Below are positions 22,725 through 42,517 of a DNA stretch of 42,517 nt, in pieces. The position numbers and the translations under genes were made by a program. Position 1 is the first letter of the stretch; every line of letters begins with the position of its first letter. This stretch comes from Bacteroidota bacterium (GTDB taxonomy: Bacteria > Bacteroidota > Ignavibacteria > Kapaibacteriales > UBA2268), in NCBI GenBank assembly GCA_021824625.1, contig JAKAKE010000230.1, positions 1 through 42,517 of the forward strand, given 5' to 3'. The notes below the pieces were generated by a model. The model saw only the letters and a program-made list of their open reading frames with translations, had not been told where the DNA came from and searched no databases.

Positions 22725-23774
22725 TTGTTAATTTTGAAATTAATTAAATCAATATTGCATTTCTTTATTTTCCTGATTCTGTCTTTGGGTTTATTTTTGT
22801 CCCATCACCAATCTTTAAATGGGAGGGAAAAAATTCAGGATGATGATGCTTTAAGTGGAACATTTGATATTAAATGGCTGGGGAAAATATCAACCGGAAA
22901 GGATTTAAATCAAGAAAAAGGCTTTTTCAAAAAAGTATTTGAGTTCGTTGCAGGTGAAGATTTCAGCGGACTGGTGAAGCCTGTTAATCTTATTGCATTA
23001 GATACATCCACTTTTATTGTTGCAGACCAGGGCGTACAGTTTCCGGTATTAATTAATAAAAGTTCCGGTAGAATTGATTATATAAAAGATAATGAAGAAT
23101 ACTACCCATCGCTTGTTGGGATATGTAATGGTAAAGACGGCAAAATATATTTTACAGATTCAAAAAATAATAAAATTTACGTTTTAAATAGTGATGATGA
23201 TGAGCCAAAAGTTTTGAATGATTCTTTGGTATTGAACCAACCTACCGGAATTGCTTATTCAAATGTTAATGATGAAATATGGGTGTCGGAAACAGCTAAT
23301 CATTTGATCGTTGTTTTAGACAGCAAGGGTAATGTGAAGAGAATGACAGGTAAAAGAGGAACAGCACCCGGTGAGTTTAATTTTCCAACTTATATATGGA
23401 TAGATTCAAACGATAAAGTTTATGTTGTTGATGCTATGAACTTTAGAATCCAGATTCTGTCAAATAATGGGGATGTCTTATCAGTATTTGGTGAAACCGG
23501 AAATGCGACCGGTTTTCTGGCATCACCGAAAGGAATAGCGACGGATTCTTATGGACATATTTATGTAGTTGATGCCTTATTCCACACGGTTCAGATTTTT
23601 GACGATAAGGGAAATTTTCTTTATTATTTCGGAAGGCAAGGCAGTGGAGACGGCGAGTTTTGGATGCCATCGGGAATTTATATTGATAAATATGACAGAA
23701 TTTATGTGGCTGATTCCTACAATTCAAGAATTCAAATTTTTCAATTGTTAAAGAGAGAGAAAAATGAAAAATAA
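22725..23774 (+). CDS. NHL-repeat beta-propeller protein, exported
   Basis: The 349-residue protein begins with a hydrophobic export signal (about residues 4-28). Six NHL-type blades follow from about residue 80; each has a 'P.GIA.D..G.IYVVD...H.VQIF' pattern, for example 'LASPKGIATDSYGHIYVVD' and 'WMPSGIYIDKYDRIYVADS'. NHL propellers are protein-binding or scaffold modules and often sit beside multihaem cytochrome genes. No ATG exists near the start: TTG 22725 or TTG 22734 must serve. Its 3' end overlaps the 12-haem cytochrome gene by 11 bp, so the two are translated as a unit. Likely periplasmic or outer-surface partner of the cytochromes (inference). Confidence 0.8.
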   Translation: MLILKLIKSILHFFIFLILSLGLFLSHHQSLNGREKIQDDDALSGTFDIKWLGKISTGKDLNQEKGFFKKVFEFVAGEDFSGLVKPVNLIALDTSTFIVADQGVQFPVLINKSSGRIDYIKDNEEYYPSLVGICNGKDGKIYFTDSKNNKIYVLNSDDDEPKVLNDSLVLNQPTGIAYSNVNDEIWVSETANHLIVVLDSKGNVKRMTGKRGTAPGEFNFPTYIWIDSNDKVYVVDAMNFRIQILSNNGDVLSVFGETGNATGFLASPKGIATDSYGHIYVVDALFHTVQIFDDKGNFLYYFGRQGSGDGEFWMPSGIYIDKYDRIYVADSYNSRIQIFQLLKREKNEK

Positions 23775-25443
23775 AATAAAAATGTTATTTATAGGTTTTA
23801 TTATTATTTTTTTCGTGAACATGCTCCATTCCGAAAAAATCAGTAATACAAAGCATAATCTTTCAGTAAGCGGCCCGGGAACAGTGAAGGCGACAAGCGA
23901 AACCGAAATTTGTATTTTCTGCCACACACCTCATGCAGCGGCTAAGACACCTTTATGGAACAGGAATGACCCGGGTTTGAGTTTCACATTATATACAAGC
24001 TCGACAACAAATGCATCAATAGGACAACCTGACGGTTCTTCGATAATGTGCTTATCGTGCCATGACGGAACTATAGCTTTGGGGAGTGTTGTCAGCAGGA
24101 CTTCAACTATAAGTTTCGGCTCTGTTACAACGATGCCGACAGGGAACACTAATCTGACAAAAAACATGACTAATGACCACCCTGTTTCATTTGTATATAG
24201 TTCAGCACTGGCAACAGCAGACGGGCAGTTGCTGCAACCGGGTTCGATAACTCCGCCTGTTAGTTTATATAATACTAAGGTTCAGTGCACATCCTGCCAT
24301 AACCCGCATGAAAACACTTCAATAAAGTTTTTAGTAACATCCTCCCAAAATTCTGCTTTGTGTGTGAGTTGCCACAATAGGACTTATTGGGCTAATTCCA
24401 CACACAAGACTTCAACAAAAACATGGAATGGTACAGCACCAAATCCCTGGTTTCATACTCCATGGACAACTGTTGCTGCAAATGCATGCGAAAACTGTCA
24501 TACTCCCCATAATGCCGGTGGTGCAGTGCGAAACATGAATTATTCCGCTGAAGAAACAAACTGTCTGAACTGTCATAATGGAAATGTCGCCTCAACGAAT
24601 ATACAATCCCAGTTAACAAAAACATACAGGCATAAAGTTGCAAATTATACAGGAGTGCATGACCCGACTGAGGCAAACATTGTTACGACACAGCATGTTG
24701 AATGTGTGGATTGCCACAATGGACATGCAAGCAATGCCACCACAGCTTCAGCACCGAATGTCAGAGGTTCATTACTTGGTGTTAAAGGTGTGGATACCGA
24801 CGGGAATAATGTTAATCCATCTCTATACCAGTATCAGATTTGTTATAAATGCCACTCAAGCAGTTCGTGGAGACCTGGAAGCCCTACAACAAGACAGATT
24901 GCACAGAATAATGTCCGGCTTGAGTTTGACCCGGCAAATCCTGCATTTCATCCAATAGAATCAGCAGGACCAAATGCAAATGTTCCTAGCCTTATTTCAC
25001 CCTGGACTACAACAAGTAAAATGTACTGCTCGGACTGCCATGCATCTGATGGTACCGGAGTTCCTAAAGGGCCACATGGGTCAACATATGCACAGATACT
25101 TGTAAAACAATATATGCGGGGTGACAATGTAAGCGAATCAGCTGCCAATTACGCTTTATGTTATACATGTCATAGCAGGACATCTATATTAGGTGATAAT
25201 TCTTTCAAAGAACATAATAAACATATTGCTGGAGAAAATTTCCCATGTAATAATTGTCATGACCCTCATGGAATCAGTAGTACACAAGGGAACAGCACAA
25301 ACAATTCAAATTTAATTAATTTTAATACTGCTTATATCACCCCCTCCAGTGGAGGAATATTAAGGTTTGACGACCAGGGTTTGTATAAAGGCAGATGTTA
25401 CCTGACATGCCATGGGAAAAATCATAATCCCTTGAGCTATTAA
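23764..25443 (+). CDS. Dodecahaem c-type cytochrome
   Basis: The 559-residue protein has a signal peptide (about 1-23) and 12 candidate haem attachment sites: eleven CxxCH (CIFCH, CLSCH, CTSCH, CVSCH, CENCH, CLNCH, CVDCH, CYKCH, CSDCH, CYTCH, CNNCH) and a last CYLTCH (CX3CH, residue 545). Many sites are followed by '.PH' or 'GH', giving candidate distal histidines, as in doubled-CXXCH cytochromes. Residues 30-205 match the separate tetrahaem protein at 25748 ('CHTPHAA', 'LW', 'GQPDGSS.MCLSCHDGT.ALGS', 'NDHPVSF', 'CHNPH'), so the N-terminal part is a paralogue. It is expected in the periplasm or on the cell surface, carrying electrons. Coupled to the NHL gene upstream; a weak hairpin follows. 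Confidence 0.9.
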   Translation: MKNKIKMLFIGFIIIFFVNMLHSEKISNTKHNLSVSGPGTVKATSETEICIFCHTPHAAAKTPLWNRNDPGLSFTLYTSSTTNASIGQPDGSSIMCLSCHDGTIALGSVVSRTSTISFGSVTTMPTGNTNLTKNMTNDHPVSFVYSSALATADGQLLQPGSITPPVSLYNTKVQCTSCHNPHENTSIKFLVTSSQNSALCVSCHNRTYWANSTHKTSTKTWNGTAPNPWFHTPWTTVAANACENCHTPHNAGGAVRNMNYSAEETNCLNCHNGNVASTNIQSQLTKTYRHKVANYTGVHDPTEANIVTTQHVECVDCHNGHASNATTASAPNVRGSLLGVKGVDTDGNNVNPSLYQYQICYKCHSSSSWRPGSPTTRQIAQNNVRLEFDPANPAFHPIESAGPNANVPSLISPWTTTSKMYCSDCHASDGTGVPKGPHGSTYAQILVKQYMRGDNVSESAANYALCYTCHSRTSILGDNSFKEHNKHIAGENFPCNNCHDPHGISSTQGNSTNNSNLINFNTAYITPSSGGILRFDDQGLYKGRCYLTCHGKNHNPLSY

Positions 25444-25455
25444 TTGGACTTTTTA

Positions 25456-25496
25456 AATAATTTAAAATAAAGCTGTTAGCTAAATTATTAATTTTT
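25456..25496 (+). terminator. Weak hairpin after the dodecahaem gene
   Basis: AATAATTTA (25456-25464) and TAAATTATT (25481-25489) form a perfect 9-bp but AT-only stem with a 16-base loop, followed by AATTTTTATT. It may end or attenuate the transcript. The rest of the 300-bp gap to the tetrahaem gene is AT-rich with no site I can name. Confidence 0.35.
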
Positions 25497-25747
25497 ATTC
25501 ATATTATTGTCAAGTATTATTTATGTTAAAATTAAAAACTCTCAAGTAATAAATTATTGATTTATTTAGCTTTACCTAAATGTTAAATTTATTTTTTTCT
25601 TTGATATTTATTATTTTTTACATAATTTTATATAGATGATTACGTCTGATTTTAAAAATGAATATAAAGTTTTAGATGAGCAGAGTAAGGAAAAATGTTG
25701 GCGAATAAAAATAACGCCATTTTATTGTAATTTTTTTTGGAGGTTTT

Positions 25748-26362
25748 ATGAAATTTTTAAAGATATTTTTGGTTTTAATATTTGTGTTGTTCGTTGCAGG
25801 AAGTATGAACAGCTTTGCAGTAATAACAGGCTCAGCTCATGACTTTTCAAATGATGCCTGGAATTCGAGTAGCCAGATTTGTTTGCCATGCCATACACCA
25901 CATAATGCAAATGCAACCTATAAACCATTATGGAATCATGCTATAACAGCATCAACATTTACTGTTTATTCAAACAGTTCTATGGACGCAACAGTTGGAC
26001 AGCCGGACGGAGCATCCAAGTTGTGTCTAAGTTGTCACGATGGTACAGTTGCACTCGGTAGTTACGGTGGAGCGACAGGTACAACTATGATAACAGGAAC
26101 AGCTCTTTTGGGCACAGATTTAAGTAACGACCATCCTGTTTCCTTTACCTATGATGCTGCACTTGCAACAACCGATGGGGAACTTTACAATCCGACGACA
26201 GCAAATTCCGGACTCGGCGGCACAATAGCTGCAGATATGCTTGAAAGCGGCAAAGTGCAGTGTTCGTCCTGCCATGATGTTCACAATACAGCAAATGTTG
26301 CAAAATTGCTTGTTAAGACGAATGCAGCAAGTGCATTGTGTCTTACTTGCCACAATAAGTAA
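25748..26362 (+). CDS. Tetrahaem c-type cytochrome, exported
   Basis: The 204-residue protein has a signal peptide (about 1-24, ending 'NSFA') and four CxxCH sites (CLPCH, CLSCH, CSSCH, CLTCH). Five further histidines (AHDF, TPHN, WNHA, NDHP, DVHN) are enough for bis-His ligation. It resembles the first third of the dodecahaem protein upstream. A GGAGG ribosome site 7 bp before ATG and a strong dedicated terminator suggest an abundantly made, independently regulated small cytochrome. It could be a periplasmic shuttle; small tetrahaem proteins such as Geobacter OmcE also polymerise into wires, and that possibility is open but unproven. Confidence 0.88.
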   Translation: MKFLKIFLVLIFVLFVAGSMNSFAVITGSAHDFSNDAWNSSSQICLPCHTPHNANATYKPLWNHAITASTFTVYSNSSMDATVGQPDGASKLCLSCHDGTVALGSYGGATGTTMITGTALLGTDLSNDHPVSFTYDAALATTDGELYNPTTANSGLGGTIAADMLESGKVQCSSCHDVHNTANVAKLLVKTNAASALCLTCHNK

Positions 26363-26393
26363 TCATTTGATTGTGAAAATCGCAAAAATAATC

Positions 26394-26420
26394 GGGGCGA
26401 TTAATAACCGCCCCTTTTTT
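26394..26420 (+). terminator. Rho-independent terminator after the tetrahaem gene
   Basis: GGGGCG (26394-26399) pairs with CGCCCC (26409-26414), 9-base loop, followed directly by TTTTTT. It is a textbook intrinsic terminator. Confidence 0.92.
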
Positions 26421-26444
26421 ATGTGAAATTTGAAACTTTAAGAA

Positions 26445-27512
26445 ATGAAGATAAAATTTTTTTTATTATGTCTTATATCAATAATATTTATTTTTCTTGC
26501 TTCCTGCTCGACTAAAATAGCAAGAAAAAGTGAACTGGTGATATTTCCATCCCCGCCCGATACTACAAGAATTCAATATCTGACAAGTATCAGAAGCTCG
26601 ATTGATATAACAGGAGGCAGGTCCTGGTTTGTAAGAATGATTATGGGTGAAGAAAAAGATTACCCGATTCAAAAACCGTACGGGATTTCAGTAGTAAAAA
26701 ATAAAATATATATATGCGATACAAAGCTTCCTGGACTTGAAATAATTGACCTCGGGAAAAAGACATTCGATAATTTTACACCCGGAGGAAGAGGAGTACT
26801 TAAATTACCTATTAATTGTTTTGTTGATGAAAACTATATACTTTACGTTGCGGATGTTGACAGGAAGGATATTGTTGTTTTCGATAAAAACAACGAATTT
26901 CTAACCAGCTTTGGCAATGGAGTGATTGAAAAGCCAACAGATGTGTTTGCATATAAAGACAAGATATATGTTGCGGATATAAAAGGGGGAAAAATACATG
27001 TTTTCTCTAAGGATGATTATAGCTTAATAAAATCATTTCCTGATGCTGATACAAGCGAGGCGGAGTATTTGCACCAACCAACAAATATATATATTAAAGA
27101 TGATTATCTCTACGTAACAGATTTCGGTGAATTTAATATAAAAGTTTATGATATTGATGGGAAATATATAAAATCAATCAGCAGTTATGGAAATGGCATA
27201 GGGCAATTGGTAAGGCCAAAGGGTATAGCACTGGATAAGGATAATAATCTATATGTTGTTGATGCCGCATTCGAAAATGTTCAAATATTCAATCCGGAAG
27301 GACAAGTTCTGATGTTTTTTGGCGGAAGCTATAAGGGTGAAGGTTATATGTATATGCCGGCTAAAGTTGCGATTGATTATGAGAATTTAGACTATTTCAG
27401 GGATTATGTTGACCCTGCCTTTGATTTAAAATTTTTAATTTTTGTTACGAATCAGTTTGGGCCCGACAAAATTACTATTTATGGATTTGTAGAGCCTAAA
27501 AAAGTACATTAA
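26445..27512 (+). CDS. NHL-repeat beta-propeller lipoprotein
   Basis: The 355-residue protein has a lipoprotein signal (lipobox 'LASC' at about residues 18-21), a linker starting 'STKIARKSELVIFPSPPDTTRIQYL' (broken by the typical 'FP.PP...R.QYL' pattern of outer-membrane 6-bladed propellers), and about six NHL-like blades ('RPKGIALDKDNNLYVVDAAFENVQIF', 'KPTDVFAYKDKIYVADI' among them). It is likely anchored to the outer membrane. Similar lipoproteins are commonly encoded beside multihaem cytochromes. It starts 25 bp after the tetrahaem terminator, so it needs its own promoter, which I do not see, or read-through. It is a paralogue of the propeller at 22725. Confidence 0.82.
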   Translation: MKIKFFLLCLISIIFIFLASCSTKIARKSELVIFPSPPDTTRIQYLTSIRSSIDITGGRSWFVRMIMGEEKDYPIQKPYGISVVKNKIYICDTKLPGLEIIDLGKKTFDNFTPGGRGVLKLPINCFVDENYILYVADVDRKDIVVFDKNNEFLTSFGNGVIEKPTDVFAYKDKIYVADIKGGKIHVFSKDDYSLIKSFPDADTSEAEYLHQPTNIYIKDDYLYVTDFGEFNIKVYDIDGKYIKSISSYGNGIGQLVRPKGIALDKDNNLYVVDAAFENVQIFNPEGQVLMFFGGSYKGEGYMYMPAKVAIDYENLDYFRDYVDPAFDLKFLIFVTNQFGPDKITIYGFVEPKKVH

Positions 27513-27552
27513 TTAAACATAAATTATTCATGAAAAAAAAAAGTTTGCACAT

Positions 27553-27670
27553 TGTCATTCTGAACTCCGGACCAAGTACGGGGCTGGCTACGTGAAGAAT
27601 CTTTCCCCATTATTAAAGGGGGATTCAGGGGAATTTTAGATTCTTCGCCGTTACAATCCTCAGAATGGCA
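27553..27670. repeat. TGTCAT-type element with nested GGGGGATT repeat
   Basis: The element starts TGTCATTCTGAACTCC and ends CCTCAGAATGGCA. Inside, at 27601-27638, lies a copy of the CCCC...AAAGGGGGATTCAGGGG motif seen at 9735, flanked by GAAGAATC and GATTCTTC arms. It looks like one repeat family inserted in another and fills the gap before the pentahaem gene. Confidence 0.6.
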
Positions 27671-27759
27671 GTCCTGTTCTTGCTTTTGAGGTATCAATTA
27701 GTTTCTATTGATTAATCCGGGTTAAGCAACACTGTGAATTTTACAGATAATATAAACGG

Positions 27760-28326
27760 ATGAATAAAAATAAGATAAATAAAGTCATAATATTATTAAT
27801 ACTATTTGTATTATTTAATTTTCTTCTGACATCCTGTTCAGCCGAGAAGAATTATGAAACATTAACTTTTTTTTTTGACGGTGTTCCTGACCCTAATGCC
27901 AAACCTTCACTGACCGATTCCAACAAAACAACCAAGGAACAGAATTTAAAACAATATGTGAAATCGGAGGAAATTTTCACACATCCGCCTTATGGTGACA
28001 GAGCTTGTGAAAATTGCCATGATGCTAAATCCGCAAACCGGTTAAATGCTTCGGAGCCTGGTTTATGTTATCAATGCCATGATGATTTTAGTAAGAATCT
28101 AAGATATGTTCATGGGCCTATAGCCTCCGGTTACTGTACTCAATGTCATGAACCTCATCAGGGTAAGTATAAAAATTTATTAATAAGGGATGGACAGAAA
28201 TTATGTTATTACTGCCATGAAAAAAATGATGTATTGGAAAATGAGAATCACACTGGAATTGAAGATACAAAATGCTGGGATTGCCATGACCCGCACGGCT
28301 CGAATGAGAAACATTTTTTGAAGTAA
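27760..28326 (+). CDS. Pentahaem c-type cytochrome lipoprotein
   Basis: The 188-residue protein has a lipobox 'LLTSC' (about residues 22-26) and five CxxCH sites: CENCH, CYQCH, CTQCH, CYYCH, CWDCH. The 'CWDCHDPHGSNEKHFL' and 'CTQCHEPHQGKYKNLL' repeats are the doubled-CXXCH pattern and match the OmpA-cytochrome at 30474. It should be attached to the outer membrane, facing either the periplasm or the outside. A 60-residue charged linker before the first haem would let it reach a partner. It precedes the beta-barrel gene by 186 bp of repeat DNA and fits the role of the cytochrome partner of that barrel. Confidence 0.87.
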   Translation: MNKNKINKVIILLILFVLFNFLLTSCSAEKNYETLTFFFDGVPDPNAKPSLTDSNKTTKEQNLKQYVKSEEIFTHPPYGDRACENCHDAKSANRLNASEPGLCYQCHDDFSKNLRYVHGPIASGYCTQCHEPHQGKYKNLLIRDGQKLCYYCHEKNDVLENENHTGIEDTKCWDCHDPHGSNEKHFLK

Positions 28327-28346
28327 ATTATGAATTATGAATGAGA
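28326..28346. repeat. Three phased 7-bp repeats at a stop codon
   Basis: AATTATG, AATTATG, AATGAGA start at the last base of the pentahaem gene's TAA. AATTATG, AATGAGA recur at 28477-28490, just before the barrel gene, so the two copies flank the TGTCAT element between them. Confidence 0.55.
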
Positions 28347-28381
28347 GGTTAAAAAAAATTGGAATCGCTAATTGAAATAAA

Positions 28382-28460
28382 TGTCATACAGAACGCAGTG
28401 AAGAATCTACTTATAAAGCACCTATAGACAATTAGATGCTTCTCTTCGCTCAACATGACA
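28382..28460. repeat. TGTCAT...ATGACA element, 79 bp
   Basis: The ends are TGTCAT (28382-28387) and ATGACA (28455-28460). Internal arms GAAGAATCT and AGATGCTTC match the copy at 39759-39831 closely. It separates the pentahaem and barrel genes. Confidence 0.65.
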
Positions 28461-28512
28461 AAGGTGATGGTTGCTGAATTATGAATGAGAGGAATTAAAA
28501 AGTTGAAAATAA

Positions 28513-30477
28513 ATGCGAATTAAGTATAAAAACATATATCTGATTATTTTATTGATATTTTCTTTTGCTGAAGCGGTGGGGCAAACCTCTTTGTATTCGC
28601 TGGGGCCCTGGAATTTTAGTTCTTTTTCAGGTTCTATATTACTTGAGGGTTCATACAAACAACAAAAGGATATCCTTACATCAAATTTTACAGAATTAAT
28701 GAAATCGTCTGCCTTCCGTAGTTTTATAAAGATGAATACAAGCAGTTATATCTGGCATCCTAATTTTATGACATTGGATGCAGATTTGGAATATAGCCCG
28801 AATGCCCGAATTGATAAATATCTTGTAATCCCAAACCGTACAGAATCAAACACTGCAGAAAGAATAAATGTAAACATATCACTATTGAATAGTCTTCCTG
28901 TAACAATCGGCTTTTTTGGTGGGATTGGACATAGCTATACAAGCAGGGAGTATGCAACAGATGTTGAGTTAAAGAGTAAAATGTATGGAAGCATACTTAC
29001 TTTGAAAAATTCCTTTATGCCGTTAAATGTCAACGTGCAAAGAAATGAGTGGGGAGAAACAGAATTATTGACAGGCAGAAGATTTTTCTATGATACTAAA
29101 TCATTATCAACGACTGCATCAAGGAATTTCAGTTCGATTAGCCAGAATCAGTTGAATTTCAATTATGATGATATTACAAGCGATTATTCTGCGACCGGGG
29201 CTCTTAATACTAAGTTAACTCACGCAACAATGTCCAACAGGTTAGCAATCAATGGCGATGGGAAAACCGAATTAAATTCGTTCTTGTCCTATCTGAATTC
29301 CATAGGTGCTCAGCAGTCAAACAGAATAGATGAAAATGCAAATTTTAAAATCGTACTGCCGGAAAATGTTCAGGTGTCAGCATCATATCTGTTTGCAAAA
29401 ATTAAACAGGATAATCTTAATATCACACAGCACAATCCAATACTGAGACTTGAACATCAACTTTATCTCAGCCTGCATACTTTTGCATATTATCAATATT
29501 CTAACATGGACGTTGAAATTTACAAAGAAGTAAGAAATACCGGTGGACTTGGTTTTAATTACCAAAAAATTATAAAATCCGGAATGCTTTATATAAATTA
29601 TGAGTTCATCGGATTAAATGAGAAAAGAAAAAGCACTTCTGCACCTATAATTGTACGTAATGAAGAATATGTACTTGAAGACGGCAGGGTAATTCTATTA
29701 AAAAATCCTTTTGTTCGGCAGAGTACAATTTCAGTAAAAAACATTAATGGAACAATTATATATCAGGAAAATATTGACTACATTCTGATTAAGAGAGGTG
29801 ATTTTATCGAAATTCAGAGGTTGCCGGGGGGACAAATAGCTAACAGAGGCAGTGTTTTCGTTGATTATGAAGCAGAAAGTCAAAGCTCTTACAGTTTTAA
29901 TTCGTTTTCCCATGTATTTGAAACAAGAGTATCTCTTTTTGACAGGTTTATAGAAGCATATATTAAAATTCTTGAGAATAACTTCAGCAATGTAAATGCA
30001 CCTGAAACAAGGATCCTGAAAGTATCGCACCAAAAAGTTGCCGGAATTGAAGTAAGGGAGGGAGCATTTTCAGGCGGCATGGAAGCTGATATTTACAACA
30101 CCAATATAGTGCCATACAATTCATACAGGATTTATGTGAATTATAACGGCGAGATAATGAAAAATATGATTTTTTCAATGCTTGGAAATTTTCAGTATTA
30201 TCATTTGACACAGGACAAAGAGATTCAGAAATTCGCAGATATATCAGGAAAGATTGAATATAGTTTTGCAGATTGGTCAAGGATAAATATAGAAGGTTCT
30301 TACAGGTTCCAGGAAGGTCGCGGATTGGGAATGGAATTGTATAACATAAAAGCCGAATACAGAATAAATTTATTGAAATTATTTATAACAACGGGTGTGG
30401 AAGCATTTTACCGGAAATTTATCGGAACAACATCCGATTTTAATAGTGCTTATATAAGGGTTGAACGAAAATTTTGA
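28513..30477 (+). CDS. Outer-membrane beta-barrel, candidate porin of a cytochrome conduit
   Basis: The 654-residue protein has a signal peptide (about 1-24, 'FAEAVGQ'). The remainder is dominated by alternating polar/aromatic strands and ends in '...SAYIRVERKF', a terminal Phe typical of barrels recognised by the BAM complex. About residues 380-455 form a non-barrel insert with 'YVLEDGRVILLKNPFV', 'DYILIKRGDFIEIQRLPGG' and 'GSVFVDYEAES', a pattern found in large barrels beside multihaem cytochromes. No known enzyme family is recognisable. Its stop overlaps the next gene, a multihaem OmpA fusion. By analogy with MtrB and OmbB, it may insulate a cytochrome crossing the outer membrane; this is inferred from context, not from sequence identity. 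Confidence 0.7.
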   Translation: MRIKYKNIYLIILLIFSFAEAVGQTSLYSLGPWNFSSFSGSILLEGSYKQQKDILTSNFTELMKSSAFRSFIKMNTSSYIWHPNFMTLDADLEYSPNARIDKYLVIPNRTESNTAERINVNISLLNSLPVTIGFFGGIGHSYTSREYATDVELKSKMYGSILTLKNSFMPLNVNVQRNEWGETELLTGRRFFYDTKSLSTTASRNFSSISQNQLNFNYDDITSDYSATGALNTKLTHATMSNRLAINGDGKTELNSFLSYLNSIGAQQSNRIDENANFKIVLPENVQVSASYLFAKIKQDNLNITQHNPILRLEHQLYLSLHTFAYYQYSNMDVEIYKEVRNTGGLGFNYQKIIKSGMLYINYEFIGLNEKRKSTSAPIIVRNEEYVLEDGRVILLKNPFVRQSTISVKNINGTIIYQENIDYILIKRGDFIEIQRLPGGQIANRGSVFVDYEAESQSSYSFNSFSHVFETRVSLFDRFIEAYIKILENNFSNVNAPETRILKVSHQKVAGIEVREGAFSGGMEADIYNTNIVPYNSYRIYVNYNGEIMKNMIFSMLGNFQYYHLTQDKEIQKFADISGKIEYSFADWSRINIEGSYRFQEGRGLGMELYNIKAEYRINLLKLFITTGVEAFYRKFIGTTSDFNSAYIRVERKF

Positions 30478-32258
30478 TAAGTAAACATAAATATAAAATC
30501 ATAATTGTTATGGCAATGTTATTGTTTGTCATATTCAATTATTTTAAATTAACACCACAGGAACAGCCGGAGAAGGTTAACTGCACGGTTTCAGGCTGCC
30601 ATGCGGATTATCTGAAATTAAAAGTCGTACACCCGGTGATTAAAGATGATTGTGAAACATGTCATTTTAAAAACAGCAATAAACATCCTGATGGTGTTGG
30701 TAAAGAATATAGTCTGCCAAAAAATGTTCCTGAACTATGTTATGATTGCCATGATTTATCAATTAAAAATCAGAAATCGGAGCATGTGCCATTCAAAGAT
30801 GGCGAATGCCTGACATGCCACGACCCTCATGGTTCGAATCAGAAGTTTTTATTGAATACAAATGACGGGAAAATAATTTGCACTTCATGCCATACTGATT
30901 TAGATAATGAAAAGTATGTTCATGGCCCCGTTCAAAAGTTGGAATGTCTTGCATGCCACTCTCCACATAATTCAATACATAGTAAATTGAAGAAGCAGGA
31001 AGAGCCTGAATTATGTTTAAAATGCCACAATAAAAGCATTAAGTCTGGTGAGAATGAGTTTGAAGCCATCAAACCTAAGCTGAACAGGAAATACGTACAT
31101 CCACCCGCCATGTATGGCTGTAATGAATGTCATAAACCACATTCATCAAAAAATAATTTTCTATTGACAAGCGAATTTCATGAAGGGAATTATGTTCCCG
31201 GTAAAGCTGAATCGTTTGCCTTGTGTTTCAAATGTCATGACCAAAATTTGCTCACAATGAAAAATACAGAAAATGCAACAAATTTCAGAAACGGAAACAC
31301 AAACCTCCATTTTCTGCATATAGGAAATGAAAAAGGAAGGAATTGTACATTGTGCCATGACATTCACGGAGCTAATAAAGAGCATTTAATCAAGGATGTG
31401 GCAAAGTTGGGCAGTTGGACAATGAATTTAAATTATATAAAATCAGAAAATGGCGGAAGCTGTGCTCCCGGATGTCATAAGCCGCTGGATTATGATAAGA
31501 CCCTGCCTGTTATTGCAGGTAAAAGTGACATAGAATCACCGATTAAGGTAACCGATAAAGCGAAGGAAGTTAAAGGCAGCGTATCCGGCAAGTTGATTTT
31601 GGGTGGAGGAATTGATAAGAAGCTGATTGTGGGTATGAATATTCATTTTATGAACCGTGATAGTTCATTCAAGGATATAACAACTGTGCAAAAAGATTTA
31701 AGCTTTTCAATGAAAAATTTAAAAGCCGGAGAATATATTGCCTGGATTGAGCAAGGAGACCTGGATGATATTGATTTAGTATCAACAGAATCCTTGAATA
31801 AATTTATTATAAATGAGAATGAAGATGCTAATAATAAAAACAATATTAATTTTGAATTAAGGAAGGTTGTCATTGTAAAGCAGGGTGCAGAAAAGCCATC
31901 AGTGAAATTGAAAGTTAAACCTGATGAGACAAGGTTATTAACCTATACCGATGAAAACAATGTAATAGAGAATAGAAATATTAAAAACTATCTTAATTCA
32001 TTCTTAAGATATTTGAAATCACATAAAAATTCAAAGCTGATAATCATTGCCCATACCGATGATCTGGGAACTTTAGTTGAATTGCAGGCAAAAAGTGAAA
32101 ACGTCGCCCGTGAAGTTGAAAAATTTTTTATCAGCAAAGGGATAGCAAAATTCAGACTATTAACTATGGGAAAAGGTTCACTTGAACCCGTAGCAAACAA
32201 CAACACAAGCGAAGGGCGTGCAAAAAACAGAAGAATAGAAATGAAAATTATACAATGA
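30474..32258 (+). CDS. Multihaem cytochrome c fused to an OmpA peptidoglycan-binding domain
   Basis: The 594-residue protein has three parts. Residues 1-35 are a basic N-terminus and a hydrophobic signal or anchor. Residues 36-335 carry 11 candidate haem sites: an unusual CTVSGCH (CX4CH), nine CxxCH (CETCH, CYDCH, CLTCH, CTSCH, CLACH, CLKCH, CNECH, CFKCH, CTLCH) and CAPGCH (CX3CH). Residues about 360-440 look like a carboxypeptidase-regulatory-type beta-sandwich ('VKGSVSGKLIL...NLKAGEYIAWI'). Residues about 500-594 are an OmpA-C domain: 'IIIAHTDDLG' and 'TSEGRAKNRRIEMKI' contain the peptidoglycan-binding Asp and Arg. The start is TTG 30474, overlapping the barrel stop (TTGA); ATG 30510 would shorten the signal. 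It should be a periplasmic electron carrier tied to the cell wall, coupled to the barrel. Confidence 0.87.
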   Translation: MISKHKYKIIIVMAMLLFVIFNYFKLTPQEQPEKVNCTVSGCHADYLKLKVVHPVIKDDCETCHFKNSNKHPDGVGKEYSLPKNVPELCYDCHDLSIKNQKSEHVPFKDGECLTCHDPHGSNQKFLLNTNDGKIICTSCHTDLDNEKYVHGPVQKLECLACHSPHNSIHSKLKKQEEPELCLKCHNKSIKSGENEFEAIKPKLNRKYVHPPAMYGCNECHKPHSSKNNFLLTSEFHEGNYVPGKAESFALCFKCHDQNLLTMKNTENATNFRNGNTNLHFLHIGNEKGRNCTLCHDIHGANKEHLIKDVAKLGSWTMNLNYIKSENGGSCAPGCHKPLDYDKTLPVIAGKSDIESPIKVTDKAKEVKGSVSGKLILGGGIDKKLIVGMNIHFMNRDSSFKDITTVQKDLSFSMKNLKAGEYIAWIEQGDLDDIDLVSTESLNKFIINENEDANNKNNINFELRKVVIVKQGAEKPSVKLKVKPDETRLLTYTDENNVIENRNIKNYLNSFLRYLKSHKNSKLIIIAHTDDLGTLVELQAKSENVAREVEKFFISKGIAKFRLLTMGKGSLEPVANNNTSEGRAKNRRIEMKIIQ

Positions 32259-32295
32259 AATAAAAAATTAATTATTCAGAAATTCAGGAATTGAT

Positions 32296-34590
32296 ATGTT
32301 CGGGAAAATCATTATTTACATTCTCTTTTTTATGTCAGCCGTAACGTCAGGGATATTTTTTCTTTCATATAAAAAAGAAGGTGAAAAGTTATTGCTTGCA
32401 AGAAAAATGTTTTATGGAATCTTGGCAGGAATAATAATCGTTAGCGTATATTTTATGATAAATATATTTGCTCATAATTTTCAATTCACATATATATTTG
32501 AATATTCATCGAAAGAACTACCTGCATACCTGCTCTTTTCATCTTTTTATGCAGGCCAGGAAGGTTCATTTTTACTTTGGTTATTCTTATTTGCAATTTT
32601 CGGTTTTTTTGTTATCAGATATGCAAAGCAGCATGGTTACGAATCAATGGTTATGGGTTTGTACTGCATGCTCATTGCTATGATTCTATTGATAATCGTC
32701 GTAAAGAGTCCTTTCGATTATATATGGGATACTTATAAAGATAATAAACTCGAAGTTGGTTTTATGCCGGCAAATGGCAAGGGATTGAATCCTGTGCTGG
32801 AGAATCCATGGATTACAATTCATCCTCCGATTTTATTCGCAGGTTATGCCGCCGCTGCAATTCCATTTGTTTTTGCTATAGCAGGATTGATTCAAAGAGA
32901 TTATAAGAAATGGATTGAGATTACACTGCCATGGACAATAATAGCATCTGCACTTCTTGGCTTAGGCATCAGCCTCGGAGGTTTTTGGGCTTACGAAACT
33001 CTCGGATGGGGCGGCTTTTGGGGTTGGGACCCGGTAGAAAATTCTTCACTGCTACCTTGGTTATGCACTATGGCACTTATACATACGATGATTGTCCAAA
33101 GAAAAACGAATGGATTGGTCAAAACAAACTTTGTTATTGCAATTGTTACTTTTATACTTGTGCTATATGCAACCTTTCTGACGAGAAGCGGAATCCTCGG
33201 AGACAGTTCGGTACATTCTTTCACCGACCCGGGTAATACGGTTTATTTTCTTCTTGTCGCAATACTCATTGTTTTTGTATTAATAAGTGTATTCACATTT
33301 TTGATGAGAAACAGTGACATCAAAAGCTCGCACATAAACTTTAATGCCAGTTCAAGGGAGTTTATGCTTACCTTTGGTTCCATATTTTTACTCTTGTCAA
33401 CTGCCATAATTTTGATAGGTACAAGCTGGCCCATATTATCCGAAATGTTCGGGATGAAGAAAAGTTCGGTTGAAACCTCACTTTATAATAATTGGAACCT
33501 GCCTATTATGTTTTTTGTGTTATTGACAAATGGTTTTTCATTGTTCTTAAACTGGAAATCCAGCTCAATAAAAAATGTTTTCAAAAAATCTTTGATTGCA
33601 ATCATTCTGACAATAGTTGCACTAATAATATTTGTTTTTACAGGAGTAAATGAATTTAAATATATTCTTCTTTTAGCGGCAGTGATGTATTCATTTTTTG
33701 TTAATGCGGAATTTGCTGTAAGGAATCTGAAAAGTCACCCTTTAAAACTCGGGGGATATTTGTCTCATATAGGAGTATCATTGTTGATGATTGGTGTGGT
33801 TGCAACGGGTGGATATTCGAAATCAGAATTGGTAAATCTAAAAAAAGGCGTTGTTTTCAAAGTGCTTGGATATAATTTATCATTAATTGACAAAATTGAA
33901 ATCGAGAAAGAAAAAACAGACAGGCAGAAGTTTATTTACAGGATAAACATCGAAAAAAACGGGTCAAGTACGATTGTTGACCCGATTGTATATTGGAGCG
34001 ATTTCAACGAGCGAAAATCACCGATTATTGAACCCGGAATTAAACGTGATTTGGCTAAGGATATTTATATTACTCTTAAAAGTTCGGAAGTAAAAAGTAA
34101 TTTGAAAACTGTGTCTGCACAAAAAGGTGTAACGACAAACTTTCTGATTGACAGTTCAATTACTTTCCATGTTTCGGGTTATGACATGTCTCATTCCGGA
34201 ATGCAGGATGAAACTAAAGCCAAGTTGGGAGTTGTTGTGAATTATAATATCAAAGGCAAGGTGATTACAGATACATTATATACAAAGCTTGGAAGTTCAT
34301 CTGTTTACAAGGATATTGTATGGAAAGAAGTGCCCGGCACAAACATTGATATTGCATTCTCGCATTTTATGCCTTCACACGAGGATATTGCAAAGTCGGA
34401 ATGTGTCTTTGCTTTTAAGCCGTTTAACGAACAATACAAAGAGCCGGAGGAAATATTGACATTTGAATTATCAATAAAACCTTTCATAAATTTTGTATGG
34501 CTTGGTGTTATATTAATTACTATTGGATTAATAATTTCATATTTCAATCAAAGGAAACTGAAAAATATAATAAATTTAGAAACTGATTAA
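32296..34590 (+). CDS. ccmF: CcmF/NrfE-type cytochrome c haem lyase
   Basis: The 764-residue polytopic membrane protein (about 14-15 hydrophobic segments) has the family's tryptophan-rich haem-handling WWD motif 'WGGFWGWDPVENSSLLPW' (about 231-250), with flanking conserved histidines ('WITIHPPILFAGYA' and 'ALIHTMIV'). A periplasmic domain (about 510-740) follows before a last helix. Proteins of this family ligate haem to apocytochromes at CxxCH in the periplasm. It follows the OmpA-cytochrome by 37 bp and probably shares its transcript, suggesting a haem lyase devoted to the haem-rich proteins of this locus, perhaps including the CX3CH and CX4CH sites. Other Ccm genes (A, B, C, E, H) are not in the window. 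Confidence 0.9.
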   Translation: MFGKIIIYILFFMSAVTSGIFFLSYKKEGEKLLLARKMFYGILAGIIIVSVYFMINIFAHNFQFTYIFEYSSKELPAYLLFSSFYAGQEGSFLLWLFLFAIFGFFVIRYAKQHGYESMVMGLYCMLIAMILLIIVVKSPFDYIWDTYKDNKLEVGFMPANGKGLNPVLENPWITIHPPILFAGYAAAAIPFVFAIAGLIQRDYKKWIEITLPWTIIASALLGLGISLGGFWAYETLGWGGFWGWDPVENSSLLPWLCTMALIHTMIVQRKTNGLVKTNFVIAIVTFILVLYATFLTRSGILGDSSVHSFTDPGNTVYFLLVAILIVFVLISVFTFLMRNSDIKSSHINFNASSREFMLTFGSIFLLLSTAIILIGTSWPILSEMFGMKKSSVETSLYNNWNLPIMFFVLLTNGFSLFLNWKSSSIKNVFKKSLIAIILTIVALIIFVFTGVNEFKYILLLAAVMYSFFVNAEFAVRNLKSHPLKLGGYLSHIGVSLLMIGVVATGGYSKSELVNLKKGVVFKVLGYNLSLIDKIEIEKEKTDRQKFIYRINIEKNGSSTIVDPIVYWSDFNERKSPIIEPGIKRDLAKDIYITLKSSEVKSNLKTVSAQKGVTTNFLIDSSITFHVSGYDMSHSGMQDETKAKLGVVVNYNIKGKVITDTLYTKLGSSSVYKDIVWKEVPGTNIDIAFSHFMPSHEDIAKSECVFAFKPFNEQYKEPEEILTFELSIKPFINFVWLGVILITIGLIISYFNQRKLKNIINLETD

Positions 34591-40056: not shown

Positions 40057-41226
40057 ATGAAGGATAAATCACATATTTTCTTTATTTTTTCAATCATTTT
40101 CGGATTAATAATCATTGCCCAAATCGCTGACTGGCTCCTGAAACCTGCGAGCTTTGACAAGTTCGGACACTACAGATGGAATGCCGTCGGCGAAATTCAA
40201 TCTCAGAAAATTGTTAACCAGAATATTAAAGTTTGTCGTGAATGTCATAAAGACATTTATCAGATACACGAAAAGGATGCACACTATAATGTACCTTGTG
40301 TTGACTGCCATGGTGCAGGTAATTTGCATGTTGCATTTCACAAAGGCGGAAAAGGAGCAAAAAATATATCAGTAAAACAAGCAGTATTGAAGAAGGAATA
40401 TAATCTTGAAGGTTGTCTCTATTGCCACAGAAAATTAGCGGCAAGGCCCTCGGATTTTCCGCAGATTGATGTTGAACAGCATTTTAAATTTCTGAATGTA
40501 ACTGACCAAAAAACAAAATGCACGGATTGTCATAATCCACATGAACCCATATTCCTTTTAACTGACGTCAGGAATTCCAGGTTACATCCAATCGTTTACA
40601 AGTGTAATGACTGTCACAATAAACCTGTAAAGAGCAGTTACAGCGACGTTCCCAATCACCCGAAAATATTTGAGTGTAAGGACTGCCATGCTGAAATAGT
40701 AAATGATTTCAGTCAGCGTCCTCATCATAATTATGTTGAGTGCAGAACCTGTCATCTTTTCCACAAGGAAAATGAAACAATTGGAAGAATATACAAAAAC
40801 GGGAACGCAAAGTTTTGTTTGTTATGTCATGAAAAGAAAAGTTTTAAGAGTGAGACATATCCTCCTAAAATTGAATGGCCTTCTCATATAAGTAAAATCG
40901 GATATATTAAAAACGGAGATGAAAAGACATGCTTGAATTGCCATTCCAATCAGATTCATAAGATGGTTTTAGGTAATGGAAAAAGTCCTCATAAAGGAAA
41001 TTGGAGAAAGGAACATAAAAATTTTGCATTTAATAAAACAACGAACAAGATGAATAGCTCATGCAGTTTATGCCATCAGAAAGATTTTTGTTCATCTTGT
41101 CATAAGTTGGAGATGCCTCACCCCGGAGATTTTGCCGAGGTGCATAAAGACATGATTCAGAAAAAAGGTAAAACATTGTGTTATAATTGTCATGGAAGGC
41201 AGTTTTGTGCTGCATGCCATGAATAA
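40057..41226 (+). CDS. Membrane-anchored 13-haem c-type cytochrome
   Basis: The 389-residue protein has one N-terminal membrane helix (about 8-27), probably an uncleaved anchor in the inner membrane, and 13 CxxCH sites: CRECH, CVDCH, CLYCH, CTDCH, CNDCH, CKDCH, CRTCH, CLLCH, CLNCH, CSLCH, CSSCH, CYNCH, CAACH. Further His residues are frequent and could supply distal ligands. It lies directly upstream of an FeS protein and an NrfD-type protein, the order of Cbc4/Nrf/Hmc-like quinone-cytochrome modules. It is therefore likely the periplasmic acceptor (or donor) of electrons exchanged with menaquinol at the NrfD protein. Direction of flow is not fixed by sequence. Confidence 0.9.
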   Translation: MKDKSHIFFIFSIIFGLIIIAQIADWLLKPASFDKFGHYRWNAVGEIQSQKIVNQNIKVCRECHKDIYQIHEKDAHYNVPCVDCHGAGNLHVAFHKGGKGAKNISVKQAVLKKEYNLEGCLYCHRKLAARPSDFPQIDVEQHFKFLNVTDQKTKCTDCHNPHEPIFLLTDVRNSRLHPIVYKCNDCHNKPVKSSYSDVPNHPKIFECKDCHAEIVNDFSQRPHHNYVECRTCHLFHKENETIGRIYKNGNAKFCLLCHEKKSFKSETYPPKIEWPSHISKIGYIKNGDEKTCLNCHSNQIHKMVLGNGKSPHKGNWRKEHKNFAFNKTTNKMNSSCSLCHQKDFCSSCHKLEMPHPGDFAEVHKDMIQKKGKTLCYNCHGRQFCAACHE

Positions 41227-41230
41227 ATTC

Positions 41231-41300
41231 ATTGAAAATTTGGAATGTTGAGTGTTGTGTTTTTTGTGTTGTATGTTGAGTTGAAAATTGAAAATTAAAA
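41231..41300. repeat. Array of ten phased 7-bp repeats filling an intergenic gap
   Basis: Ten heptamers (ATTGAAA, ATTTGGA, ATGTTGA, GTGTTGT, GTTTTTT, GTGTTGT, ATGTTGA, GTTGAAA, ATTGAAA, ATTAAAA) run from 4 bp after the 13-haem stop to 2 bp before the next ATG. The gap is thus almost nothing but this degenerate array. Confidence 0.7.
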
Positions 41301-41302
41301 TT

Positions 41303-42070
41303 ATGGGTTTTGATATGGGACATAAAGACAGACGTAAATTTATAAAGTTAGGACTGTACAGCAGTGCCGGTGTTCTTGTCGGTTCTTTTTATGCTTTCAG
41401 TAAAAGAGAAATAAGCCCGGAGTTAAAAAAATATGAGGATTTGCTAAAGTTCGACTGGGGATTTATCGTTGACACGACAAGATGTATCGGCTGTGGTGCC
41501 TGCGTAAGAGCCTGTAAGATTGAAAATGATGTACCGGACACATATTTCAGGACATGGGTAGAAAGATATGAAATCAATAATAAAGAGATAGTCAGGGTTG
41601 ATTCGCCGGAGGGAGCAATAGAAAGTTTCAAATCGAATAATTATTCCGATGACATAGTTAAAGCTTTTTTTGTACCTAAATTATGCAATCACTGCTACAA
41701 TTCTGCATGTACACAAGTTTGTCCGGTTGGCGCTACATTTCATTCGCCTGACGGGGTTGTCCTGATTGACAAAGAGCATTGTGTCGGCTGCGGATATTGT
41801 GTTCAAGCCTGTCCTTATGGCTGCAGGTATATAAACCACGAGAAAGGAACGGCGGATAAATGCACGTTATGCTACCACCGCATAAGCAAAGGTGAAAGTC
41901 CGGCATGTGTGAACGCATGCCCAAGGAATGCGAGAGTATTCGGAAATCTTAAGGACCCGAAAAGTCAAATCCGCAAAATCCTGCATCAAAGAAGATATGG
42001 CTTGCTAAAACCTGATTTGGGAACTAATCCCAAATGTTATTATATTGGACTCGATTTGGAGGTTAAATAA
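41303..42070 (+). CDS. Tat-exported four-cluster 4Fe-4S ferredoxin (NrfC/HybA-like)
   Basis: From ATG 41303 the protein is 255 residues. It opens with a twin-arginine signal ('DRRKFIKLG' plus a hydrophobic stretch), so it should be exported folded to the periplasmic face. Sixteen cysteines form four cluster motifs: 'CIGCGACVRAC', 'CNHCYNSACTQVC', 'CVGCGYCVQAC' and 'CTLCYHRISKGESPACVNAC'. This is the NrfC/PsrB/HybA electron-relay layout, which passes electrons between an NrfD-type quinone protein and a catalytic or haem subunit. The TTG at 41288 lies inside the heptamer array, so ATG 41303 (or 41315) is preferred. Its stop overlaps the start of the NrfD gene by one base. Confidence 0.92.
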   Translation: MGFDMGHKDRRKFIKLGLYSSAGVLVGSFYAFSKREISPELKKYEDLLKFDWGFIVDTTRCIGCGACVRACKIENDVPDTYFRTWVERYEINNKEIVRVDSPEGAIESFKSNNYSDDIVKAFFVPKLCNHCYNSACTQVCPVGATFHSPDGVVLIDKEHCVGCGYCVQACPYGCRYINHEKGTADKCTLCYHRISKGESPACVNACPRNARVFGNLKDPKSQIRKILHQRRYGLLKPDLGTNPKCYYIGLDLEVK

Positions 42071-42517
42071 TGGATCCTTCACATGGTTTTTTATTTCCGA
42101 ACGAACTTCATATAACATGGACTGTAATGATTGTCCTTTATCCCTACATTACAGGGATGGTGGCGGGTGCTTTTATTGTTTCATCTTTTTATCATGTTTT
42201 TGGCATGGAAAAACTAAAACCTATTGCCAGGTTTGCTCTTGTTTCATCATTTGCTTTTTTACTATTTGCAACCTTACCTTTATTAAATCATCTTGGAAGG
42301 CCTGAGCGTGCAATCAATATTCTGCTTACTCCAAATTTCAATTCTGCAATGAGTGGGTTTGGATTTATATATATGTTTTACATGATTATTGTTTTCCTTG
42401 AAATTTGGTTCAGTTACAGGGTGGAATTAATTGAAAGATATTATAAGTCTAAGGGAATAGTAAAATTTATTTATAATATAATTATATTAGGGAATACCAA
42501 TGATAATGAAAATACAA
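42070..42517 (+). CDS. nrfD: NrfD/PsrC-family membrane quinone oxidoreductase subunit (3' end outside window)
   Basis: ATG 42070 shares a base with the FeS gene stop (TAATG). The 149 residues present are open to the window edge. They begin 'MDPSHGFLFPNELHITW' and contain three or more hydrophobic helices; 'LFATLPLLNHLGRPERA' followed by 'FNSAMSGFGF' is the NrfD/PsrC signature around the quinone-binding end (helix with Gly-Arg-Pro-Glu). The family has 8-10 helices and oxidises or reduces menaquinone at the periplasmic side, passing electrons to the NrfC-like protein. Gene order 13-haem, FeS, NrfD resembles Geobacter Cbc4 (CbcS-CbcT-CbcU). The rest of the operon is not visible. Confidence 0.88.
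   Translation, partial: MDPSHGFLFPNELHITWTVMIVLYPYITGMVAGAFIVSSFYHVFGMEKLKPIARFALVSSFAFLLFATLPLLNHLGRPERAINILLTPNFNSAMSGFGFIYMFYMIIVFLEIWFSYRVELIERYYKSKGIVKFIYNIIILGNTNDNENT

Follow-up and report, generated by a model that had tools for sequence, protein, structure and literature searches.

A block of eight open reading frames (ORFs) at positions 22725-34590 of a contig from a Bacteroidota bacterium (JAKAKE010000230.1 of assembly GCA_021824625.1, positions 1-42,517; this whole stretch of 42,517 nucleotides is called the window here) is read, with fair confidence, as an operon for an OmcE-type cytochrome nanowire with an outer-membrane complex dedicated to it. This reading is favored because one product of the block, a tetrahaem cytochrome, is homologous to the filament protein OmcE, keeps eight invariant histidines and is accompanied by a dodecahaem cytochrome with an OmcE-like head. 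It is favored also because the gene order and the co-occurrence of the genes are conserved, a beta-barrel is modelled and the cytochromes beside it match chain 6r2q_A, and because a 21-haem DmsE-type lipoprotein lies by the barrel in a related cluster and probable quinol-oxidising genes lie nearby, both here and at another locus (L014). An earlier reading made from the sequence only had described eight genes on one strand with the haem counts given below, which the ORF map and the counts of haem motifs bear out: all eight ORFs are on the + strand, and DNA coding for the strict haem motif occurs 46 times in the window against 2.45 expected from shuffling. The NHL1 and dodecahaem genes share 11 bases, and the barrel and OmpA-cytochrome genes share 4. 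The features of the block are as follows.

22725..23774, +: NHL1, a six-bladed-type NHL beta-propeller (PF01436, E 2.5e-27; N-terminal hydrophobic signal)
23764..25443, +: dodecahaem cytochrome with an OmcE-like N-terminal domain (7TFS match; haem motifs)
25748..26362, +: tetrahaem cytochrome, OmcE-type putative filament subunit (7TFS and 9YUQ matches)
26394..26420, +: GC-rich stem-loop with a T6 run (RNA fold; gap comparison)
26445..27512, +: NHL2, a lipoprotein NHL beta-propeller (PF01436, E 1.6e-9; PF17170; lipobox-like ...FLASC)
27760..28326, +: pentahaem lipoprotein (PF09699, E 6e-28; lipobox-like ...LLTSC; FFFDGVP motif)
28513..30477, +: predicted outer-membrane beta-barrel (AlphaFold2 model of about 28 strands; C-terminal Phe)
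30474..32258, +: 11-haem cytochrome with a beta-sandwich and an OmpA-like tail (CxxCH count; PF00691)
32296..34590, +: CcmF/NrfE-type haem lyase (PF16327, PF01578)

The OmcE-type subunit and the dodecahaem cytochrome

The tetrahaem protein matches the structure 7TFS with an E value of 1.1e-27 over query residues 6-204, and the profile of its family (profile A2, OmcE-type) matches the same structure with an E value of 2.5e-41. Eight histidines (H31, H49, H52, H97, H129, H176, H179 and H202) are invariant in 10 aligned rows; four belong to the four CxxCH motifs and four are further histidines, and all of them align to histidines in 7TFS and 9YUQ. The structure 7TFS is that of the Geobacter OmcE filament (PMC12954529), in which one haem is reported to take a histidine ligand from the neighboring subunit (PMC12307469; PMC12954529). 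The match of the tetrahaem to 9YUQ (E 7e-27), a 16-chain entry named "putative multiheme cytochrome c", is of similar strength to that with OmcE, and the entry is probably another filament. OmcS (6EF8) reached no better than an E value of 0.97 against profile A2, and the protein has four haems where an OmcS-type subunit would have six. By sequence and by its eight candidate histidine ligands, the tetrahaem is an OmcE homologue that may polymerise in the same manner. Since it is of the type of the OmcE filament subunit, the locus would be a nanowire locus, beyond a plain conduit. The sequence-only reading had proposed an extracellular electron-transfer conduit; its set of barrel and cytochromes and their linkage stand, and what it overlooked is the filament subunit.

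The same genome has another OmcE-type gene, with five haem motifs, away from the cluster (contig C11, L017:9823-10476). Similar copies with five haems are located behind the large cytochrome gene in L080, L084 and L094, and ahead of NHL2 in L082; extra OmcE-type copies are seen in several loci (L079, L080, L082, L083, L084 and L094).

The dodecahaem cytochrome has 11 CxxCH motifs and one CX3CH motif. Its residues 12-205 match 7TFS (E 6.7e-33), the OmcE-like domain spanning about residues 12-206, and eight further haem motifs follow that domain. The protein is 49-57% identical in KSB1-phylum and Draconibacterium loci. Conservation was followed over 17 barrel loci from 15 genomes; a dodecahaem-type gene lies on the same contig in 10/17 loci, three more genomes have one at another place in the assembly, and so does G455, judged there solely from a match of the OmcE profile in a long frame; among the barrel-carrying genomes none was seen in G016 and G488. 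NHL1 stands before the dodecahaem gene in L011, L012, L013, L015, L020, L079, L082 and L083, and likewise in the split loci L092, L093, L095 and L097, while NHL2 sits between the OmcE-type and pentahaem genes in related loci. In another genome (G013, L096:1-3103) the large cytochrome gene comes straight after the dodecahaem gene, and the genes for filament subunit, propeller, pentahaem and barrel are missing from between them. The OmcE-like head and the additional haems suggest that the dodecahaem protein may serve as an adaptor for the filament.

The barrel and the cytochromes beside it

The AlphaFold2 model of the barrel protein, made from nine sequences, comprises about 28 long antiparallel strands (predicted local distance difference test, pLDDT, 84.4; predicted template modelling score, pTM, 0.62) with an inserted region near residues 389-459, and bears out the barrel fold that had been supposed from the sequence. 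By the textbook formula 28 strands give a radius of 24-28 Å, a predicted bore that could in principle accommodate a cytochrome. Neither Pfam (at E<=0.01) nor NCBIfam holds a family that the barrel of the window matches; a TonB-dependent or other known transporter was rejected as a candidate since no such family matches. The only family matches among the barrels (RVP_2, HtaA, AraR_C, Phage_tail_terminator_4, DUF3964 and tail_tube_6XGR) are taken as chance. In a structural ranking of 989 aligned Protein Data Bank chains, the barrel of the Mtr complex (6r2q_B) came top (Z 17.4, 418 residues, root-mean-square deviation 9.7), while the top rows of Foldseek hold unrelated large barrels with template modelling scores below 0.45. 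The modelled fold shows a weak preference for the Mtr barrel.

The large cytochrome downstream carries 11 haem motifs (nine CxxCH, one CX4CH and one CX3CH), and an OmpA domain (PF00691) occupies its residues 502-586. It matches the DmsE family model TIGR03508 with an E value of 5e-26, under the cut-off of that model, and its profile finds its best solved match in 6r2q_A of the Mtr complex (E 1.5e-20). The pentahaem lipoprotein, with five haem motifs and a Cys26 that is invariant in 9 rows, has the same closest solved chain (E 1.5e-18). This chain is taken to be MtrA; the molecule name given by the depositors is wrong for a cytochrome. The haem lyase matches TIGR00353 with an E value of 3e-83, below the cut-off of that model.

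The wall-anchored OmpA part had been regarded as characteristic of the block. This claim fell, and the tail was rejected as a defining feature, since it is detectable by BLAST in just 6/17 loci; CcmF was rejected as a core gene in the same way, following the cytochrome in 6/17 loci. These are the same six loci, all of the window's family, and both features are additions confined to that family.

Gene order, co-occurrence and neighboring genes

In all 17 loci the large cytochrome gene is directly downstream of the barrel gene (one barrel being split over two contigs), and the barrel gene adjoins multihaem cytochrome genes, which is the arrangement of a porin-cytochrome cluster. The two genes overlap by 4 bases in 8/17 loci, the window included. 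NHL2 and the OmcE-type gene lie upstream of the barrel in 16/16 loci whose contig reaches that far (the contig of L016 is too short for the upstream genes to be assessed, and in L019 and L080 the contig breaks off within the OmcE-type gene), and the pentahaem gene is present in 15 of 16, with none listed in L084. The named carriers are two metagenome-assembled genomes of KSB1 and one labelled Draconibacterium. Distant bacteria keep the core genes of the block in an unchanged order. That the barrel has both a lipoprotein cytochrome and a large one beside it, in a conserved linkage, is supported over the 17 loci. The sequence-only reading had also named what would speak against it, namely a barrel gene product that is a known transporter or lacks a barrel fold, or a gene set never conserved together; it has survived both tests so far, because a barrel fold is modelled, no known transporter matches and the linkage is conserved. 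No sigma-54 site was found before the cluster genes in the window, and six matches in 5/25 scanned sequences (one each in L014, L084, L088 and L091, two in L087) form no pattern.

Barrel and OmcE-type gene also tend to occur together. Among the 54 genomes of the window's family, 6 have the barrel, 7 the OmcE-type gene and 5 both (Fisher p 3.8e-5, or 8e-4 without the window's genus). In the wider phylum of the window the barrel profile matches at least 3 of 395 genomes, or 2 when G182 is set aside, where the match covers 47 positions (E 5.8e-6) inside a frame of 1196 residues. The KSB1 phylum, with 82 genomes, holds the barrel in 19 and the OmcE-type gene in 20, and once three weak partial matches are set aside (the barrel in G466, E 6e-4; the OmcE-type gene in G524 and G528, E 4e-4 and 6e-4) the two are found in an identical set of 18 genomes. 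The Fisher values, 1.7e-18 for the strong matches and 6e-15 for every listed match, ignore relatedness; in G517 and G518 the two genes are on separate contigs, so adjacency is not shown there.

Two forms of the cluster are found in the KSB1 phylum. The form of the window (type I) is present in 8 of the 18 carrier genomes, and in the other ten the barrel is more distantly related (E 1e-15 to 1e-37). In the six loci of the distant form that were fetched, NHL, OmcE-type gene, an ORF of 325-331 residues and barrel follow one another in this order on one strand (6/6). In 5/6 the barrel is preceded by a multihaem lipoprotein (5, 7 or 21 haems), and in the remaining one, L098, a 5-haem gene comes after it. 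The ORF of 325-331 residues encodes a SurA-like PPIC isomerase in 3/3 loci tested. A histidine kinase and a sigma-54 regulator stand beside the cluster in L091 and in the type I locus L020, which were tested with Pfam, and ORFs of kinase and regulator size are present at other loci. The 21-haem lipoprotein adjoining the barrel exceeds the DmsE-family cut-off (251.6 against 192.2), as expected if one protein does the jobs of both the pentahaem and the large cytochrome.

Just 3' of the OmcE-type gene of the window, a stem-loop with six GC pairs, a 9-base loop and a T6 run is predicted, and the RNA fold of positions 26345-26444 has a z score of -2.70. Strong hairpins follow 8/18 OmcE-type genes against 1/30 of the other genes scanned (p 8e-4), and where gaps are at least 60 bases long they are found in 8/15 against 1/19 (p 0.004); the score threshold of 20 was set after the results table had been seen, and several of the eight hairpins are without a good T run. 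The hairpin is possibly an attenuator or partial terminator that would leave the filament subunit in excess.

A possible source of electrons is found further downstream as a companion to the block, outside its core.

40057..42516, +: 13-haem cytochrome (40057-41226), FeS protein (41288-42070) and NrfD (42070-42516, cut by the contig end)

The last 71 bases of the window recur exactly at the end of a second contig from this genome (L116), on which the NrfD frame continues, followed by a Rieske protein, a cytochrome b and a 10-haem cytochrome. Both parts together are a probable inner-membrane quinol-oxidising module. In L014 a Rieske protein, a cytochrome b and an 11-haem cytochrome come directly after the cluster. 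On a further contig of the same genome (C156, L115:6066-12807), ORFs with 19 and 13 haems flank a protein of 730 residues that has a b561-type part, a NapC/NirT-type part and 6-7 haem motifs, an arrangement reminiscent of Geobacter CbcL. At the other end of the window, positions 1-2226 hold a large ORF, the end of which resembles by eye what we take to be a type IX secretion sorting domain, presumably pointing to a bacterium of the Fibrobacterota-Chlorobiota-Bacteroidota (FCB) group.

Competing readings and known systems

As a nanowire operon, the block would work as follows. An inner-membrane module like that found downstream would draw electrons from the menaquinol pool, and the large cytochrome, sitting inside the barrel, would carry them across the outer membrane; the pentahaem lipoprotein would then hand them to an extracellular haem filament into which the tetrahaem polymerises in the fashion of OmcE. 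Barrel, pentahaem lipoprotein and MtrA-like large cytochrome would form the outer-membrane complex that serves the filament, the dodecahaem protein, with its OmcE-like head and eight further haems, would join the filament to this complex, and the propellers may aid assembly or docking. A more specific form is put forward tentatively, as one that may well be wrong: subunit, OmcE-headed dodecahaem capping or nucleating the filament, and MtrAB-like barrel complex would be inherited together as a wire and its socket, with the filament plugged in haem to haem.

Several points weigh against the nanowire reading. The match with MtrA may be generic, because cytochromes with paired CXXCH motifs resemble one another, and the model of the large cytochrome is poor in the haem part, the beta-sandwich and OmpA parts alone being confident. 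No curated MtrB-type or porin family of Pfam or NCBIfam matches any of the 9 barrels at E<=1, and these libraries presumably hold MtrB-type models. The lead of 6r2q_B in the structural ranking is small, with unrelated barrels as runners-up at Z 15.9, and the chain is absent among the best 50 matches of Foldseek. Three genomes are discordant, G016 with the barrel and without the OmcE-type gene, G002 and G013 with the OmcE-type or dodecahaem gene and without the barrel; the relevant genes of G002, G013 and G016 are on contigs of 6.0, 3.1 and 4.0 kb. The locus of G013 differs or is rearranged, since its dodecahaem gene runs directly into the large cytochrome gene. Additionally, genetic work in Geobacter is reported to question any conduit role of cytochrome filaments (PMC11077965).

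Among the other readings, the best surviving is that the barrel is a channel for secretion or assembly of the filament, with neighboring cytochromes that fold or dock it and electrons arriving by another route. Genes beside omcS have been linked to the way in which the OmcS nanowire matures and is secreted (PMC12977616), and the assignment of OscH to folding, OscE/F/G to secretion and OscD to morphology (PMC13194489) favors an export channel, as do the SurA-like isomerase gene between the OmcE-type and barrel genes of the related KSB1-phylum clusters and the closeness with which the barrel tracks the filament subunit across genomes. On the other hand, a pure secretion channel would have no need of the adjacent MtrA-like cytochrome gene, overlapping in those 8/17 loci by 4 bases, and no isomerase is listed beside the barrel in the type of the window. 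We regard this reading as rather unlikely, and it is possible that the barrel is conduit, exporter or both. Somewhat less probable again is the same machine run in reverse, for uptake of electrons from Fe(II), a partner cell or an electrode. Sequence does not fix the direction, and uptake through such conduits has been proposed for syntrophic sulfate reducers (PMC10553843); the quinol-type genes nearby suit export at least as well, without excluding uptake. That the block is an ordinary porin-cytochrome conduit with the OmcE-like protein as a monomeric surface cytochrome appears improbable: homology to a filament subunit is indeed no proof of polymerisation, and sequence alone is reported to predict poorly which OmcS homologues form wires (PMC12977616), but all eight OmcE-aligned histidines are conserved, a second OmcE-like domain is found on the dodecahaem protein and extra OmcE-type copies exist.

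Under the nanowire reading, the subunit resembles that of the OmcE filament (7TFS) as a homologous tetrahaem protein with the same eight histidines, whereas the operon here also encodes a dodecahaem with an OmcE-like head, a barrel complex and two propellers. The osc (OmcS-companion) operon is described as filament genes followed by an eight-gene block for maturation and secretion (PMC12977616), with a sensor kinase and a sigma-54 regulator at GSU2507/2506 in G. sulfurreducens (PMC10599522) and the names OscC-J (PMC13194489). From these printed descriptions, the KSB1-phylum clusters are alike in holding a kinase, a sigma-54 regulator, NHL, OmcE-type protein, SurA-like isomerase, multihaem lipoprotein and barrel. 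The filament protein here is of the OmcE type instead of OmcS, and the type of the window is without adjacent isomerase and regulators and adds the dodecahaem, a second propeller and the MtrA-like cytochrome. The view that the block may be a separate type was too strong, given a related KSB1-phylum cluster with a parts list close to that printed for the osc region of Geobacter. Porin-cytochrome clusters of Ignavibacterium, which the sequence-only reading had mentioned, are already in print (PMC4245776; PMC7399161). No report of OmcE loci in Bacteroidota or KSB1 is among the literature matches listed, and the text of a KSB1 genome paper (PMC9012183) is without "multiheme", "nanowire" or "OmcE".

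MtrCAB (6R2Q) is similar in its large barrel and adjacent multihaem cytochrome, 6r2q_A being the closest solved chain, and differs in that the barrel here is outside the porin families of Pfam and NCBIfam, that no MtrC-like decahaem is present and that the barrel is linked to a filament subunit. By description of their gene sets, Pcc/OmbB-OmaB-OmcB and Oet likewise cluster a periplasmic cytochrome, a barrel and a lipoprotein cytochrome. In passages of a 2025 review, membrane anchoring and electron entry points are named as key challenges, and direct biochemical evidence that ties porin-cytochrome complexes to nanowire formation is described as lacking (PMC12307469). A barrel family unnamed in Pfam and NCBIfam that tracks the OmcE-type gene over 82 genomes in a conserved order offers a small set of candidates for the socket of a nanowire; this candidate socket is placed in FCB-type bacteria, with the OmcE-headed dodecahaem as a directly testable candidate for the adaptor. 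According to a suggestion by Murali et al. (PMC10553843), every cytochrome filament may work in partnership with such a conduit, and a proposal of this type gains here a linkage in both gene order and gene content.

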